Origin: Campylobacterales bacterium | GTDB taxonomy: Bacteria; Campylobacterota; Campylobacteria; Campylobacterales; Sulfurimonadaceae | DNA: 53,119 bases | Reading direction: 5' to 3' | Assembly: GCA_014859655.1 (NCBI GenBank) | Contig: JACUTT010000011.1 | Span: 1-53,119, forward strand | Shown: positions 9,953-39,791 of the stretch, one piece after another | Numbering within the stretch: the first letter of the stretch is position 1 | How the letters are laid out: each line of letters starts with the position of its first letter | Notes under the pieces: generated by a model | What the model was told of the DNA's origin: nothing | What the model saw: only the letters and a program-made list of their open reading frames with translations | Database searches by the model: none | Translations under genes and position numbers: made by a program

Positions 9953-10033
9953 CTCTGATGACCGGAAATAAAATTAGCTTTCCATTCACTTGCTTAAATA
10001 AGTTTTTTTGTCTTAGCTTAATAAAGTTTTCGG

Positions 10034-10039
10034 TATAAT
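10034..10039 (+). promoter_or_regulatory. -10 box for rpoD
   Basis: A perfect TATAAT lies 46 nt before the rpoD start in AT-rich DNA. No strong -35 hexamer is at 17 nt. Confidence 0.55.
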
Positions 10040-10085
10040 CCATTTTTATTTTATAAAACACACCGCAACTCGCAAGGAGACGTCA

Positions 10086-11945
10086 TTGTCTGCAAAAGAC
10101 CTCAACAAAAACATAGAAGAAATATTTTCAAGCCATACCACTGATACCTGTATCACTTATGAAGAGATCGTAGAGCTGTTTGAAAAAGCACCGACTTCGG
10201 CCCAGGTGAAAAACATTATCAAGCATGCGCAAAAATACAAAAAATGCCTCTTTCCCTCTTCAGAGTATGCCAAGGTCTTAAACAAGCAAGAGTCTGATGC
10301 CCGTCGTGCAGCGCAAAAGAAAATGATTGCGGACGCAAATAATGAAGACTTTGACATCATGAAAGAACGCGAGCTCTTAGAGTGGTCTCGTTCGGATTCT
10401 CCTGTGCGTATGTACCTTCGCGAAATGGGGCAGATCCCACTTCTGACCAAAGAAGAAGAGGTCTCGATCTCCAAGCGTATAGAAAGCGGCGAAAACATCA
10501 TTCTTGACGCAATCTGTTCGGTTCCTTATCTCATTGACTTTATTCTTGACTATAAAGATCCTCTGATCAACAGAGAGCGCCGGGTCAAAGAGCTCTTTAA
10601 GAACTTTGAAGACGATGTCGAAAGCAGTGACGACGACTCAGAGACCGAAACAGAAGAAGAAGAAGACGCTGATGAAAAAGAGGCAAATGTTACCGTCAAG
10701 GACAAGAAACGTGTCGACAAGGTCATAACAAGTTTTAAAGCTCTGGAAAAAGCAAAAAAAGAGTGGATGAAAACCGCCGACAAAGAGGTCACGGAAGACA
10801 CAGAGGATCTTGAGTATACCCTACACCACTTGACCGCAAGCTATAAAAAGAAACTTGTCAAAGAGTGCCTTCTTGATCTTGGACCGACGTCAAAACTCAT
10901 CAACGAGCTTGTAAAGTCTATGGAAACCGCGCTGCACAGTGACGACGGTTTTGACAAAGAACTCAAACGCCTTGAATACAAGCTTCCTCTTTTTAACGAG
11001 ACCCTAAAAACCAACCACATCGCCCTTCTTGAGGAGATCGTTGACCTGAGCAAAGAAGACGTCACTGCAAAAGTGCCCGAAGCGACGATGGTAAGCACCT
11101 ATATGGAGATCAAAAAGCTTATCCAGACCAAAGAAGCCTCAAAAGACAGCTTTGACATGGAACCTGAAAAACTTCTCGATATTTTGGAACAGATCAAACG
11201 CGGCAAAGAGATCTCCGAGATCGGAAAGACGCGTATGGCGAAGTCAAACCTGCGTCTTGTTGTCTCGATCGCCAAACGCTATACAAACCGTGGTCTGCCT
11301 TTCCTTGACCTTATCCAAGAGGGCAATATCGGTCTGATGAAGGCCGTCGACAAGTTCGAGTACAAAAAAGGGTATAAGTTCTCTACCTACGCGACATGGT
11401 GGATCCGCCAGGCGATCTCGCGTGCTATAGCCGATCAGGCGAGAACAATCCGTATTCCTATCCACATGATCGAAACGATAAACCGCATCAACAAGATCAT
11501 GCGTAAACACCTTCAGGAAGAGGGAAAAGAGCCTGATGTCGAAACCATCGCAAAAGAGGTTGGTCTCAGCGTAGAAAAAGTCAAAAACGTCATCAAGATA
11601 ACCAAAGAGCCTATCTCGCTTGAAGCCCCTATCGGAAATGAAGAGGACGGGCGTTTCGGCGATTTTATTGAGGACAAAAACTCGCTTTCTCCCTCCGATG
11701 CGATCTTGAAAGATGACCTGAAACTTCAGATCGAAGGCGTTCTCGAACAGCTCAACGAAAGAGAAAAAGCGGTTATCAAGATGCGCTTTGGGATCATGGA
11801 TGATGAGAGCGACCGAACACTTGAAGAGATCGGCAAAGAGCTCAATGTCACCCGCGAGCGTGTGCGCCAAATCGAATCTTCGGCCATTAAAAAGCTCAAA
11901 CACCCCAAAGTGGGACGTAAGCTTAAAAACTATATCGAAGAGTAG
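10086..11945 (+). CDS. rpoD: RNA polymerase primary sigma factor
   Basis: A 619-aa sigma-70. Region 1.1 is at the N-terminus, followed by the region 1.2 motif [21 protein letters not shown] long acidic non-conserved region (about residues 170-220, with a run of Asp and Glu) precedes regions 2-4. Region 2 shows [20 protein letters not shown] and [20 protein letters not shown]. Region 4.2 has the [23 protein letters not shown]. Translation begins at TTG 10086, six nt after AAGGAG; no ATG gives a full region 1.1. It directs vegetative transcription and should read the TATAAT boxes noted in this window. Confidence 0.98.
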
Positions 11946-20622: not shown

Positions 20623-20961
20623 CTACTCCTTTGCCTCATATAGATAGTCGTAAAGGGTCTTGACCTCGCTGCGTGTGAGAAAGTATTTTGGCATCAGACC
20701 GTTTTTCTCTTCGAGGGCTGCTTTGAACTGCTCTAGAGTGAGATGCTTGATCGAATCGGTCTTGAGGACTCTTTTTTTGCCCTTGTGTAGGTAGTTGGCA
20801 ATGACCATCCCCTCGCCGTTTGGTCCGTGGCATTTGTCACAGCCGATCCCGCGGGGATTTTTGTACAGATGTTGTGCGTACTCTTCTGCGGTGATAAAAG
20901 AGTCTTTTTCTTTGGCAAAAACACACAGACAAAGCGTTAAGATAAAGAAGCTAAACCGCAT
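20623..20961 (-). CDS. Small class I c-type cytochrome
   Basis: A 112-aa exported cytochrome. A signal peptide (about residues 1-16) is followed by one CXXCH heme site (CDKCH) and a probable Met axial ligand in GLMPKYFLT. It is a single-domain periplasmic electron carrier. It is first in the minus-strand run cytochrome-lyase-LetA-LetA-LetB and divergent from folD. The partner oxidoreductase is not in the window. Confidence 0.9.
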   Translation of the reverse strand: MRFSFFILTLCLCVFAKEKDSFITAEEYAQHLYKNPRGIGCDKCHGPNGEGMVIANYLHKGKKRVLKTDSIKHLTLEQFKAALEEKNGLMPKYFLTRSEVKTLYDYLYEAKE

Positions 20962-32758: not shown

Positions 32759-32901
32759 CCATTATAGTTCTTTTGTCACCTCTGATAATAAGGGCAATTG
32801 TACCAAAACTTCCTTTTATATGAGACGATACCTCCTTAAAGAGAGGCATTAAGTCGTATTTAATGCAGTGCGGTTTAAAATCTTTTCCTTAAAGGAAATA
32901 A

Positions 32902-34110
32902 ATGCGCTGGTCAATTAAAACAATATTCAATAATCTCACCAAAATCCTGCTCCTACTTTCGGTTATTCTTGGCGTTCTTGCCGTCATTATGTTCAGTTTT
33001 AACGCGTCGATTTCTAAAGTAGACCTTTTGATACACCAAAAGGCACTTATAAAAGAGGCCTATGCCCTTGGCCGCGAGGATATTCAGCTGAGCAATATCA
33101 AGCTAAAAAGTATTTTCAATAACCTGAAATTCGATATCACAAAAATGAAGGATGCCTCGGCACTTGATATTCTTGGCAATTATGTCTACTCCTATGCGCC
33201 AGAGTATGCCCAAGACCTTGAAGCGCTCAGTCTCCAGCAGATGCGCTACATTGAAGCGGCCGACACCTATTATGACCAAAGCATTGAAAATCTTGAGCCG
33301 CGCCTTAAGGCCTATGAAACGGCTCAAGCGGAATATCTAGGCAAACTCCTTGAACTCGAAGGGAAGCATCTGGTTTATGAGTCACAGAAGTTGACCCTTA
33401 TCCAGTACGCTGTTTATCTGGCTTTTTTAATCTCCATACTTTCAACCCTATGGTTCACTCGCCGCCTCTCCTTTATATACAATGACCTCAAAACACTCTA
33501 CTCGGTTGATCTTGAAAGCAAGGGACGTATGTTTTTGACCGAAGAGGCAGAGATGATCACGAAGCGCATGAGTCGCAAGCCGACAGCCACGGAAAATCCA
33601 GCCTTTATCGACCCTGTAACCGAGATCAATAATTATAAGGGCCTGCTGAACGGTTTTGCCAACAGGAAGGGCAATAACGGGCCTATTCTGGCCGTATGTG
33701 TTTTCTCCCTTGACAATTTTAAAGAGATCGAAAACAGATACAAAAAAGATCTCGCCAATCAGATCCTCAAGAAAATCGCCTTTATGTTTTCGCTGTATGA
33801 GCAGCATACCGATGTGCTCGGACGTATCGATTATGATCAATTTGTTCTCATCTTGAACAGAAGTACCAAAGATGCCGCTTTCAAAGATTGCGAGCAGATC
33901 AGAAAAAACATCGAAGAAACAAAGTTCAAAGCCCCCAAAGGCGAGACGATCAGCCTGACAGTAAGCGGCGGGTTTGTGGTCAAGACACCGAACAAGCAGA
34001 TTGATGAAACTATTGTGCACGCCAAGGAAATCTTGACGACTGCTCGTGCCAAGGGCGGCAATAAAATTGCCCAACTGCGTGATCATGCAGAAAGCGGATT
34101 GAAGCACTAG
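32902..34110 (+). CDS. Membrane sensor with degenerate GGDEF domain
   Basis: A 402-aa protein with two membrane spans (about 12-34 and 166-184) enclosing a helical periplasmic sensor of about 130 residues. A cytoplasmic GGDEF-type domain follows (about 235-400). The signature is degenerate: positions of G-G-D-E-F read Asp310-Tyr311-Asp312-Gln313-Phe314 (in LGRIDYDQFVLIL). It is unlikely to make cyclic di-GMP and more likely acts as a receptor or scaffold. AAGGAAA precedes the ATG. A hairpin follows the gene. Confidence 0.85.
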   Translation: MRWSIKTIFNNLTKILLLLSVILGVLAVIMFSFNASISKVDLLIHQKALIKEAYALGREDIQLSNIKLKSIFNNLKFDITKMKDASALDILGNYVYSYAPEYAQDLEALSLQQMRYIEAADTYYDQSIENLEPRLKAYETAQAEYLGKLLELEGKHLVYESQKLTLIQYAVYLAFLISILSTLWFTRRLSFIYNDLKTLYSVDLESKGRMFLTEEAEMITKRMSRKPTATENPAFIDPVTEINNYKGLLNGFANRKGNNGPILAVCVFSLDNFKEIENRYKKDLANQILKKIAFMFSLYEQHTDVLGRIDYDQFVLILNRSTKDAAFKDCEQIRKNIEETKFKAPKGETISLTVSGGFVVKTPNKQIDETIVHAKEILTTARAKGGNKIAQLRDHAESGLKH

Positions 34111-34149: not shown

Positions 34150-34263
34150 TTCATGTCTCAAACAGTAACACTCCCATCTAAACAGCACAAACTCCCCTCT
34201 TTCAACCTACTTCAAGCCATGCATAGCTATAATCCACCAAAAATATTTTCGGAGGAATTGCGA

Positions 34264-35976
34264 ATGAGTATTCCTATTTATACTTACGATGCGGTAATTG
34301 TTGGTGCAGGGCTTGCGGGCTGTGCAGCGGCACTTGAACTGCAAAAAGCCGGCAAAAAGGTCGCGGTTATCACAAAACTGCACCCTTTGCGTTCACACTC
34401 AGGGGCTGCTCAAGGCGGTATCAATGCGGCATTCAGCGAGGCAGACAGTGTTGAACTGCACGAGTTTGACACGGTAAAAGGTTCTGACTACCTGGCCGAT
34501 CAGGATGTGGTTGAGTTTATGTGTAAGAATGCCCCGGAAACGGTGCGTTGGATCGAGCGTATGGGCGCGGCCTTCTCGCGTACGGATGACGGCAAGATCG
34601 CACAGCGCCCCTTTGGCGGACAATCCTCACCGCGTGCCTGTTTCGCAAAAGACCGCACGGGACTTACACTCTTGCAGACGATCTATGAGCAGGCAAACCG
34701 CCATGGTGTTACCTTTTGGGACGAGTGGTATGCCGCAGATCTTCTGTATGAAGATGGAAAAGTATACGGCGTAGCCGCTTATGATATTCGTAACTCCGAA
34801 AGAGCGATCTTTAACGCTAAAAGCGTCATGTTCGCCACCGGCGGATATGCACGTGCTTTCAAGATCAACTCCAATGCCCACGCCAACACAGGTGACGGAC
34901 TTTCACTGGTTGCGCGCCATGGACTTCCACTTGAAGATATGGAGTTTGTGCAATTCCACCCATCGGGACTCTCCGGAAACGGTGTTCTTATCTCTGAGGC
35001 AGCGCGTGGGGAAGGCGGACGTCTTCTCAACTCTGAGGGCGAGCGTTTTATGGAGCGTTATGCGCCTAACGCGCTGGAGCTTGCTTCTCGCGACGTGGTT
35101 GCGCGTGCTATCATACAGGAGATCCGCGAAGGCCGCGGTGTAGGTCCGCGTAAAGATGCGGTCTATATCGACCTTGTGCATCTTGGCAAAGAGAAGATCA
35201 TGGAGAGACTTCCTGAGCTTCGTGATCTGGCCATCACCTTCTTGGGCCTTGACATGATCAAAGAGCCTATCCTTATCTCTGCCACGGCACACTACTCGAT
35301 GGGAGGTATTCCCTGCGACGTCGACGGGCATGTGCGCAAGAACAACACCGAGTTCGTAGAGGGCTTCTACGCAGCGGGCGAATGTTCTTGTGTCTCTGTC
35401 CACGGTGCGAACCGACTGGGCGCGAACTCTGTGCTTGAGGCGCTTCTTTTCGGCCGTTTTGTCGGCAAGTCGATGGTCAATGACATTGACGGCATCGAAC
35501 TGCGCAAAGCCACACAGGCTGACGCGGACGCTATGAATAAAGAGATCGACTGGGTCCTGAGCAACAACGGTACGGAAAAAGTCGCTCTTCTTCGCAACGA
35601 GCTGCAACAGTCGATGACAGACAATGCCGGTGTTTTCCGAACAGAAGAGACGCTGATCAAACAAGTTGCCATCATGAAAGAGCTGCAGGCACGTTACAAA
35701 AACATCCGTATCGAAGACAAGTCAAAGATCTTCAATACCGAACTGCAAGAAGCGATCGAGTTTGGACATATGCTTGATTACTCGCTCTTCATCGTCGAGA
35801 GTGCTCTGGCACGCAAAGAGAGCCGGGGTGCGCACTTCCGCGAAGATTTTACCGCGCGTGATGATGAGAACTTCTTGAAACACACCATGGCCTACATGGA
35901 CAAAGACGGAAAAATCAAGCTAGACTACATGGACGTCATACTGGGCAAACATGAACTTAAAGCCAGAAGCTACTAA
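34264..35976 (+). CDS. sdhA: Succinate dehydrogenase/fumarate reductase flavoprotein
   Basis: The 570-aa FAD subunit starts at ATG 34264 behind GGAGG; the open frame extends 37 codons upstream without ribosome site. It has the dinucleotide fold [18 protein letters not shown], the flavin-linking His in [47 protein letters not shown] and [18 protein letters not shown]. There is no twin-arginine signal, unlike periplasmic MfrA of Campylobacter, so this should face the cytoplasm. With sdhB and sdhE it forms a type-E complex on menaquinone. Confidence 0.96.
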
Positions 35977-35986
35977 GGAGAGAGAC

Positions 35987-36967
35987 GTGAGTGAGATCAA
36001 AACACAAAAAATTACCTTCAAGGTATTTCGTTTCAACTCTGAAACTGACTATCTTCCGAACTATATCGATTATGAATTGGAAGTCACACACGAAGAGGTT
36101 GTGCTTGACATCTTGAACCGCATCAAATGGGGGATGGACGGCTCGCTTTCCTACCGCCGTTCATGCCGCCACGGTATCTGCGGTATCTGTTCTGTTAAGG
36201 TTGCCGGCAAGGCGATCCTGGCCTGTAAAGAGAATGTCCTCAGCCTGGTAGCCGCATTCGGCACTGAACTCGTCATTGAGCCGCTGAGCATCAAACGCGC
36301 GATGAAAGACCTTATCATCGACAAGGGAGACTTCTGGAGCAAGCATGACCAGATCAAACCTTACCTGATCAGCGAGATCGAAGAGTATCCTGAGACAGAA
36401 AACCTGGTCACACCGCAGCAAGCAGAAGCGCTCAACGAAGCGGACTACTGCATACAGTGCGGTGCCTGCCACTACTCCTGTCCTGCGCTTGAGATCAATG
36501 AGCAGTTCATCGGGCCGGCAGCCTTTGCCAAGGCTTTCCGTTTTGAAGCTGACGTACGTGACGAGGCCGGAAACGAGCGTCTAAACATCATTAATGCTCC
36601 CGAAGAGGGAGTGTGGGACTGTGTCAAATGTATGGAGTGTGCGGAAGTCTGTCCGAAAGATGTCAATCCTATCGAGAAGATCACTCAGCTTCACAACATG
36701 GTCTTTAGCGCAGGCGTAGCCAAAAACAATATCGCAACACGCCACGCGGTCTATTTCAAAGACTCAATAGCAAAACACGGACAGCTCAATGAGGCCGGTC
36801 TGGTCATCTATTCTGAAAAAGGCTACGGGATGTACAAACACCTCAAAGTCGGCGCCAGAATGATCGCCAAAGGCAAGGCGCATATCAATCCGTTTATCGT
36901 TCCAAAATCTGACAAGATGGATGAGATCGCCAAACTCGTCAAATCTTCGTCAAGCGCGAAATTTTAA
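35987..36967 (+). CDS. sdhB: Succinate dehydrogenase/fumarate reductase iron-sulfur subunit
   Basis: The 326-aa subunit begins with GTG 35987 behind AAGGAGAGAG, 10 nt after sdhA; the longer frame would start inside sdhA. The [2Fe-2S] set is in RRSCRHGICGICSVKVAG plus LAC. The two cubane-cluster motifs are CIQCGACHYSCP and CVKCMECAEVCPKDVNP. It passes electrons between the flavin and SdhE. The N-terminal stretch FRFNSETDYLPNY also recurs in the degenerate protein at 38.6-39.6 kb. Confidence 0.97.
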   Translation: MSEIKTQKITFKVFRFNSETDYLPNYIDYELEVTHEEVVLDILNRIKWGMDGSLSYRRSCRHGICGICSVKVAGKAILACKENVLSLVAAFGTELVIEPLSIKRAMKDLIIDKGDFWSKHDQIKPYLISEIEEYPETENLVTPQQAEALNEADYCIQCGACHYSCPALEINEQFIGPAAFAKAFRFEADVRDEAGNERLNIINAPEEGVWDCVKCMECAEVCPKDVNPIEKITQLHNMVFSAGVAKNNIATRHAVYFKDSIAKHGQLNEAGLVIYSEKGYGMYKHLKVGARMIAKGKAHINPFIVPKSDKMDEIAKLVKSSSSAKF

Positions 36968-36978
36968 GGAGTACAACA

Positions 36979-37857
36979 ATGTCTACACTGAAATATGCAC
37001 TATTTACCGGTTGTACTGCACGTCAAAGTACGCCCGAGCAGATGATGTCAACGATGGCCATCGCTGAAAAGATGGGAATTGAACTGGAGATCTTGGAAGA
37101 AGCGACCTGCTGTGGCGCGTCGCACCTTCAAGATTTTGACGACTTTTTGTCGCTCGTTCTCAATGCGCGCAATATCTGCTATGCGGAAAAACGCGGCATG
37201 ACCATGGTCACGATCTGTAACACCTGTCAGCTCAACACGATGATGACCAAACGCCGTCTCGACAAAGATCCTGAGCTAAAAGCACGCGTCAATGAGAAGC
37301 TTGCCGAAGTCGGTCTTGAGTACAAAGGCGAGTCTGAAATCAAACACTTTTTGTACGCGATCATCGACGATTTTGGTCTTGAGAACTTAAAAAAGATGGT
37401 AGTCAAGCCGCTTAGCCAGTTCAATATCGCACCCTTCTACGGATGCCATAATATCCGCCCTTCGGAGATACACGAAGAGTCAAACGGGCATGAAAATGCC
37501 TATGCACCTCGATCGCTTGACGACCTTATCTTGGCCTGCGGCGGCGTGAGTGTTAATTATGCAGAGAAGAACAAATGCTGCGGTTTCCATGCCGAGCTTC
37601 AAGCGCCTCACACGGCAGCTGTCTTGACCGGCAATGCGATCATGGGAGCCATGGATAACAATGCTGACTGGATGGTAACACCCTGCCCGCTTTGTCACCT
37701 CAAGCTTGACACCCAGTACGAACACGCCTCCAAGGCAGTCGGACGTGAGGTTAAGCTCCCGGTGCTTCATATGCAGCAGATGATAGGACTCGCGTTTGGG
37801 ATTTCCGGCAAAGAGCTGGGCTTGCAGCATCACGTGAGTGAAGTAAACTTCGTCTAA
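36979..37857 (+). CDS. sdhE: SdhE/HdrB-like CCG-domain subunit
   Basis: A 292-aa protein with two cysteine-rich CCG domains, as in heterodisulfide reductase HdrB and type-E SdhE/SdhC. The first reads EATCCGASH with CNTCQLN, the second FYGCHNIRP, KCCGFHAEL and CPLCHLKLD. These bind iron-sulfur clusters and anchor the enzyme to the membrane for quinone reaction. GGAG precedes the ATG. A strong bidirectional terminator follows. It closes the sdhA-sdhB-sdhE operon. Confidence 0.94.
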   Translation: MSTLKYALFTGCTARQSTPEQMMSTMAIAEKMGIELEILEEATCCGASHLQDFDDFLSLVLNARNICYAEKRGMTMVTICNTCQLNTMMTKRRLDKDPELKARVNEKLAEVGLEYKGESEIKHFLYAIIDDFGLENLKKMVVKPLSQFNIAPFYGCHNIRPSEIHEESNGHENAYAPRSLDDLILACGGVSVNYAEKNKCCGFHAELQAPHTAAVLTGNAIMGAMDNNADWMVTPCPLCHLKLDTQYEHASKAVGREVKLPVLHMQQMIGLAFGISGKELGLQHHVSEVNFV

Positions 37858-37913: not shown

Positions 37914-38327
37914 TTAGAGCACTTTTTTAAGCTGCTCTTTCAGCTCCGGATTGTCGTTAAGCGTTTTCTTGAACGCCTCTTGATTTAGGAGCATATTTGA
38001 AGCATCATTTGGATATTTTCAGGATCACTCATTAGCTTTCTTCGCATCGTATCTCTGAATCGCAACTGTTCCTGCTGCATCTTTTGTTGATGCTCGCTCA
38101 TCATCTTTTGCATTTCCGGATCGCTCATTATCCTCTTTTGGGCGTCAGCACCCATCATACCCATCATGTTCTGCTGCTGCATAGCATATTGCATCATGTG
38201 TCTATTCTGCATCTCTTGATTGTTCATGCCCATGCCGCCTTTTTGCATCGTTCCAGCAGCGTCTGCTGCATGTGCCCCCAAGTGTGAGTATTCCTGCTGC
38301 CATTGCTGTAGTTAGCCATCGTTTCAT
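37914..38327 (-). pseudogene. Broken Met/Gln-rich exported protein, two indels
   Basis: Read with two single-base corrections, this is a 137-aa exported protein. AAGGAA precedes ATG 38327 and a signal peptide MKRWLTTAMAAGILTLG. The next frame then supplies AHAADAAGTMQKGG, a natural AHA-AD cleavage site, and a body rich in Met and Gln (for example HMMQYAMQQQNMMGMM). The last part is LLNQEAFKKTLNDNPELKEQ. The first break is at the G5 run (38275-38279 on the plus strand as C5; four would restore the frame). The second is at the AAA run (37996-37998; four would restore it). Only 37985-38281 is open as written. It may bind copper(I) or form a periplasmic helical protein. It is either a pseudogene or a sequencing artefact. 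Confidence 0.75.
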
Positions 38328-38499
38328 ACTGATTCCTTTGTTGTTTTGATATTTCGAGTTTTCATTATAAAAAGAAAGGCATAAATTATACGTTAAATCA
38401 TATTATTATTTATTTTAAAATGGAAAAAAGAAAGGGGAATTTGGCGAATACCACCACTACAAGATCCATGTGGATAGTTTAGCGGCACTTGGAGCTGTT

Positions 38500-39633
38500 T
38501 TACAAGAAAGAGATTTTGACCTTGTGATCGTCGAAGCCTAGTTTTGCGCGGTCCCTCTCTCCTTCAAGCAACTGCACGAACTGTTCTTGGCAGATGACGC
38601 TTAAGCCTATCTCACGGCCCGTCAGACGCTACATCTTTGCTTGGTTCTTGTCAAAAAAGTCACGCATTTTTTCATTTTTAACCAGAATAAAGTCGGCATT
38701 TTTGTCCATCGCCTGCAGCAGTATGTCTCCCGCGATCATGCAAGAGAAGTTCTTGTCAACATGCTGTGAGTATGGGGTCATGTCTTCATGTTTTGAGGGG
38801 ATATTGATATGGACGGCACCGCTTTTTTCAACAAGAGACTCGATCGTGCCCGGCTCGGTCCCCTCGTAGGTGGCTATATTGAAACCGGCAAAGTCCCGAC
38901 TTTCTTGAACGGAAATTTCTTCGCTCTGCCTGTTTGTTCCCTCTGCAGGCAGAGGGCTTTCTTTTTGGAAAAAGTCACGGATCTTTTTGCCAATCTTTGA
39001 TTTTGGTTCGGGTTTTAACATTTTGAGACACTTTTTCAGAAGCTGTTCTATTGTTGCTTCTTCTGCACTGTCGTAGCTAAAGAGTCTGTTTTTCAATGAA
39101 GAGTGGTACCAGACGCCATTGTCCTTATCGCTTAGCAGACGCAGAATCTCTTTTTCATTTTCAGGGTGCTTTTCGATGATCTCGGCCGCACACAGAAGGA
39201 CATGGTCACCTATGTAGTCTCGTTTGTAGTTGAGGGTGTTGGAGGCGTAGTAGTGCAGCTCTGTACGTTTAAGGCAGCTCTCTTTCTCCTCCTGGCTCAT
39301 GTAGGGTGCAAGCAGGTCCAGTTTTGAGGCGAGATCGCTTTTGTCGATTTGAAGGTCTTTATAGACCAGAAACTCACTCGCCGGCCCTATCGTGAGTGTT
39401 TCTCCGCATCGGCTTATCACATCTGCAATGCGTTCGCTCGATCTTAAAAAATAGTGGTTAATCTTGCAGACACCCTCTTTGTCAAATCCAAAAGGCTGAA
39501 TCAAATTTATTTTTTCAAAAAGATCAGCTATCGTCTCATCGCTGCTATAGGAAACGCTATGCTTTGTGTAGTAGGGAAGATAGTCTGTACGACTGTCAAA
39601 CCTAAATAATTCCACCTCTGTCTTAGCCATCAT
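38500..39633 (-). pseudogene. Cysteine-poor SdhB/SdhE-like fusion with in-frame amber
   Basis: The frame starts at ATG 39633 (or 39630) behind GGAG and runs 334 codons to TAG at 38629-38631, then continues for 42 more sense codons to TAA 38500-38502. The N-terminal half matches the SdhB of this window: FRFDSRTDYLP versus FRFNSETDYLP, and KDLQIDKSDL versus KDLIIDKGDF. The C-terminal half matches the second CCG domain of SdhE (FNIA, then AMDKNADF). After the amber, TGREIGLSVICQEQF aligns without gaps to VGREVKLPVLHMQQM of SdhE. The iron-sulfur cysteines are lost. It converges on sdhE and may be a structural partner. I think related Campylobacterota genes exist as a DUF family near sdh, from memory only. 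Confidence 0.8.
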
Positions 39634-39791
39634 ATCAACTCCAAAATGCATAATTTGCACTATTATAATATAAAAAATTAAAATAATATCATGATATCAA
39701 TGTAGTTGTTGGCTTTTAATTATAGTACAAGCTTAGAGGCGCACTTAAGCAATTTTCCTATAGACTGAGTGACATTAACACAGGAGAATAC

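Follow-up and report, generated by a model that had tools for sequence, protein, structure and literature searches.

An in-frame amber codon interrupts a DUF5644 gene

The analysed stretch of DNA (the window) comprises 53,119 nucleotides of contig JACUTT010000011.1 from a Campylobacterales bacterium of the Sulfurimonadaceae. On its minus strand, a gene of the DUF5644 family is interrupted by an in-frame TAG codon at positions 38629-38631, in the last tenth of the gene. The 333 codons upstream of the stop (38632-39630) encode an SdhB-like N-terminal part, the DUF5644 region in the middle and most of an SdhE/HdrB-like C-terminal domain. Alignment with the nearest relative (MAKIEVELFRF) puts the start at the ATG at 39628-39630; the mechanical ORF of 343 codons (38632-39660) starts at a GTG, at 39660. 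After the TAG, the frame stays open for the 42 codons that make up the remainder of the gene and the end of the HdrB-like C-terminal domain (38503-38628). They read RLTGREIGLSVICQEQFVQLLEGERDRAKLGFDDHKVKISFL and are followed by a TAA at 38500-38502, a stop position common to the nearest relative. The original prediction had described the amber codon and the 42 open codons leading to the TAA, and both were found as described, on the minus strand, which it had left unstated.

At this composition, 42 open codons in a row would arise by chance with a probability of about 0.15. Since its length alone proves nothing, the extension was judged real by its homology, and on that ground it is the true C terminus of the DUF5644 protein. 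PF18712 (DUF5644) was matched in the middle of the protein at 42.2 bits, above the curated cut-off of 25. PF22196 (HdrB-like_C) was reached to its end (7-87 of 87) only when the stop was read through, at 27.5 bits and thus below its cut-off of 33.4, which the protein of the nearest relative passes with 34.0 bits. The extension had further been said to align gaplessly with the C terminus of SdhE. This applies to each of the two quoted blocks, but one residue is gapped between them. The equal spacing that had been proposed was confirmed: with the amber codon counted as one residue, NAD(F/W) and GRE are 27 residues apart in either protein.

The next gene, also on the minus strand (37914-38327), encodes a small Met/Gln-rich protein with a signal-like N terminus. 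Compared with the nearest relative, it carries two single-base frameshifts, at homopolymer runs at about 38275-38279 and 37996-37998. The counterpart in that relative is intact, with 133 amino acids, and matched no Pfam family above cut-off. On the plus strand follow the intact genes sdhA, sdhB and sdhE (34153-37857), which encode an SdhABE resembling 8-methylmenaquinol:fumarate reductase; SdhB and SdhE are encoded at 35951-37857.

Relatives carry a sense codon and conserve the extension

The stop site was aligned in sixteen homologues, all from the same family of genomes, which gives 17 sequences with the query. The nearest relative (G024) belongs to the same genus; its contig, JAGXFN010000005.1, is titled Arcobacter sp. 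LH_M16, and a contig scan for relatives returned one match only, this same contig. At the position of the TAG the homologues have CAG, CAA, GAA, GAG or GCT, and a stop is found in 0 of 16. The DUF5644 protein of the nearest relative is 71% identical and has CAG at the site, one transition away from TAG.

The extension is conserved beyond the stop. Compared with the nearest relative, its identity is 81% and that of the body 70%, with dN of 0.13 and 0.19, respectively, at saturated dS. At the nucleotide level the extension differs from that relative at 32 sites, 22 of them third codon positions. Across all 17 sequences the mean pairwise identity is 0.49 for the extension and 0.40 for the body, and three invariant residues sit past the stop. 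Because the extension is conserved at least as well as the body, and its differences fall mainly at third positions, it had been under selection for coding until very recently. A comparison of relatives at this codon had been suggested in the original prediction, which named relatives that stop there as well, with no conservation beyond, as the result that would speak against it. The homologues instead show a sense codon throughout and conservation that continues past the stop.

Changes unique to this lineage were counted against the sister sequence at sites where three outgroups agree. The extension has 4 changes versus 2 in the sister, and the body 18 versus 7, an excess that is weak (about p 0.03, one among several comparisons). 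The gene as a whole may thus evolve slightly faster in the lineage with the TAG, and the excess in the body can be read as a mild sign of relaxed constraint.

The same alignment bears on the idea that truncation leaves a stable and functional protein variant, the last 42 codons being dispensable. Shorter members of the family, of about 210-280 amino acids, suggest that some DUF5644 proteins can do without the C-terminal domain. The stop, however, lies inside the HdrB-like C-terminal domain and not between domains, invariant residues follow it, and all nearest homologues keep the end of the domain. We therefore regard a functional truncation as very unlikely.

TAG appears to be an ordinary stop codon in this genome

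An extension that is in frame and conserved, with a spacing that holds when the stop is counted as one residue, could also be explained by functional readthrough or amber reassignment, in which an amino acid is inserted at the TAG in a fraction of the product or in all of it. Among the sampled contigs (0.69 Mb), however, TAG ends 134 of 442 long ORFs (about 30%). The release factor RF1 is present, with a match above cut-off, and PylS was searched in the genome and not found. Two anticodon-loop patterns were used to look for a suppressor tRNA. Among their matches in the 37 tRNA genes located, not all of which were read letter by letter, there was no tRNA with a CTA anticodon; these matches were D-arms or tRNA-Arg(TCT). 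A TAA flagged inside an RF2-like match turned out to be the regular stop of that gene. A tmRNA was seen at L063 1483-1859, with the tag peptide ANNTNYRPAYAVA.

Genome-wide amber reassignment was rejected on the grounds of the TAG-ended ORFs, the presence of RF1, the failure to find PylS, and the mixture of lesions described below, in which other interrupted genes carry TAA, TGA and frameshifts too. Since the stop is kept by no relative, so that a comparative sign of a maintained stop is missing, and no decoding machinery was found, functional readthrough of this TAG is improbable, and we give it very little weight. A useful level of TAG readthrough in the absence of a dedicated suppressor tRNA, yielding both full-length and truncated DUF5644 protein, is held to be just as improbable. 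A conserved extension after a stop is by itself no sign of recoding; what decides is which codon relatives carry at the site, whether the neighbouring genes are sound and how common lesions are in the genome.

Lesions around the stop and in the genome

The TAG and the two frameshifts of the adjacent gene all lie within about 640 bp (37996-38631). The contig is syntenic over the window with that of the nearest relative, and no other clear lesion was seen among the genes of the window in this comparison. Two flagged sites were discarded: stops at 32890-32899 lie upstream of the start of a GGDEF gene at 32902, and a stop at 20939 falls in an alternative reading frame that overlaps the real gene at 20623-20961. 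The DUF5644 gene and the gene at 37914-38327 also show the lowest identity to the nearest relative in the window (71 and 62%, respectively), with the others mostly at 81-100%.

In the wider genome, lesions were found in 11 of 474 sampled coding-like genes compared with the nearest relative (about 2%), and in the reverse direction 8 of 452 genes of that relative were affected, so the lesion background is ordinary and close to the relative's own rate. The lesions in the 11 genes comprise TAG five times, TGA twice and TAA twice, plus frameshifts. Besides the TAG in the DUF5644 gene there are thus four cases with this codon: in two of them frameshifts are present too, and in two the stop is near the C terminus. 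Genes with an in-frame stop plus frameshifts relative to G024 were observed at L079 (G000:C58, ~93480-94690) and L166 (G000:C2, ~10030-10650) and are probably pseudogenes.

Origin of the interruption

A recent mutation, an error and readthrough had all been offered in the original prediction. The relatives and the genome evidence favour the first two and speak against readthrough. The adjacent gene's two frameshifts, which the prediction did not include, point to an ordinary lesion, be it a mutation or an error, and the clustering of the three lesions fits both a nonsense mutation and a sequence error.

In the case of a sequence or assembly error, the base would be wrong, or the assembly would be a mixture in which a minority variant was recorded, and the organism itself would have a whole gene. 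The same would go for the next gene, with both of its homopolymer frameshifts being errors as well, arising for example in a low-coverage stretch. Three lesions in about 640 bp of a contig that otherwise has no clear lesion are in line with this, as are the location of both frameshifts at homopolymers, the lack of visible decay in the extension and a fragmentary assembly of 85 contigs with an estimated contamination of 4.84%. Against it, the rate of lesions in the sampled genes is unremarkable and similar to the relative's, the two affected genes have the lowest conservation in the window, and the DUF5644 gene has a mild lineage excess of changes, the latter two as expected if the loss is real. 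We consider such an error possible, with some doubt, and see in it the main rival to a real mutation.

The explanation that we favour as probable is a recent, ordinary nonsense mutation in the DUF5644 gene of a two-gene stretch that is losing function. In a non-essential, fast-evolving gene, a single transition would have turned a Gln codon into an amber codon, the TAG base presumably being real in the organism. RF1 would end translation at the TAG, giving a product that lacks the last 42 residues of the HdrB/SdhE-like C-terminal domain. The truncated protein is probably non-functional. The DUF5644 gene and the frameshifted next gene would thereby form a small stretch losing function in this lineage, beside the intact sdhABE genes. 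A single in-frame stop, an intact frame after it, a sense codon in relatives and a disrupted neighbour are also the features of bacterial nonsense pseudogenes, although the stop base is here taken from the assembly. Speaking against a real loss, most of the DUF5644 gene is free of other lesions and the extension has not decayed. The interruption is of little import beyond annotation, in that automatic annotation of the contig would yield a truncated DUF5644 protein. The more interesting question is posed by a cysteine-less relative of SdhB and SdhE that is often encoded beside sdhABE.

The DUF5644 protein resembles a fusion of SdhB and SdhE

By sequence comparison, the DUF5644 protein appears to consist of an SdhB-like part fused to an SdhE-like one, the SdhB and SdhE of SdhABE (8-methylmenaquinol:fumarate reductase) being homologues of its two halves. 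In direct comparisons, residues 20-222 of SdhB were 25-28% identical to the N-terminal half, and the C terminus of SdhE was 22-25% identical to the C-terminal part. The CCG domain PF02754 gave no match in the DUF5644 protein in the Pfam search, and Fer2_3 stayed below cut-off. No column of the family alignment has a cysteine in more than 4 of the 17 sequences, and because no cysteine column is conserved among these members, iron-sulfur cluster binding has presumably been lost in the family. In contrast to SdhB and SdhE, the DUF5644 protein thus has no cysteine ligands for iron-sulfur clusters and, judged by its sequence, would not be a canonical subunit.

The family was present in 156 of 298 genomes from the class and in 0 of 14 control genomes. 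Its open frames range from about 210 to 580 amino acids, with many of about 210-280 across the class. One group has open frames of about 500 amino acids, compared with about 376 for the protein here if read through; unlike in that group, the gene here is interrupted, and an HdrB-like C-terminal domain is present. HP0468 of Helicobacter pylori is given as a DUF5644 protein in a listing (PMC9570263), and PDB entry 3kwl, an uncharacterized protein of 514 amino acids, matches residues 12-238 of the DUF5644 protein (2.4e-17). A structure prediction for the read-through protein, made from two sequences, reached a mean pLDDT of 44.7, too low to be of use. An experimentally tested function for the DUF5644 family was not found; an accessory or regulatory role for SdhABE is a fair guess. 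In many relatives the DUF5644 gene is located beside sdhA or sdhE (loci L004, L008-L011, L013 and L014), and its orientation varies, being convergent, divergent from sdhA or downstream of sdhE.
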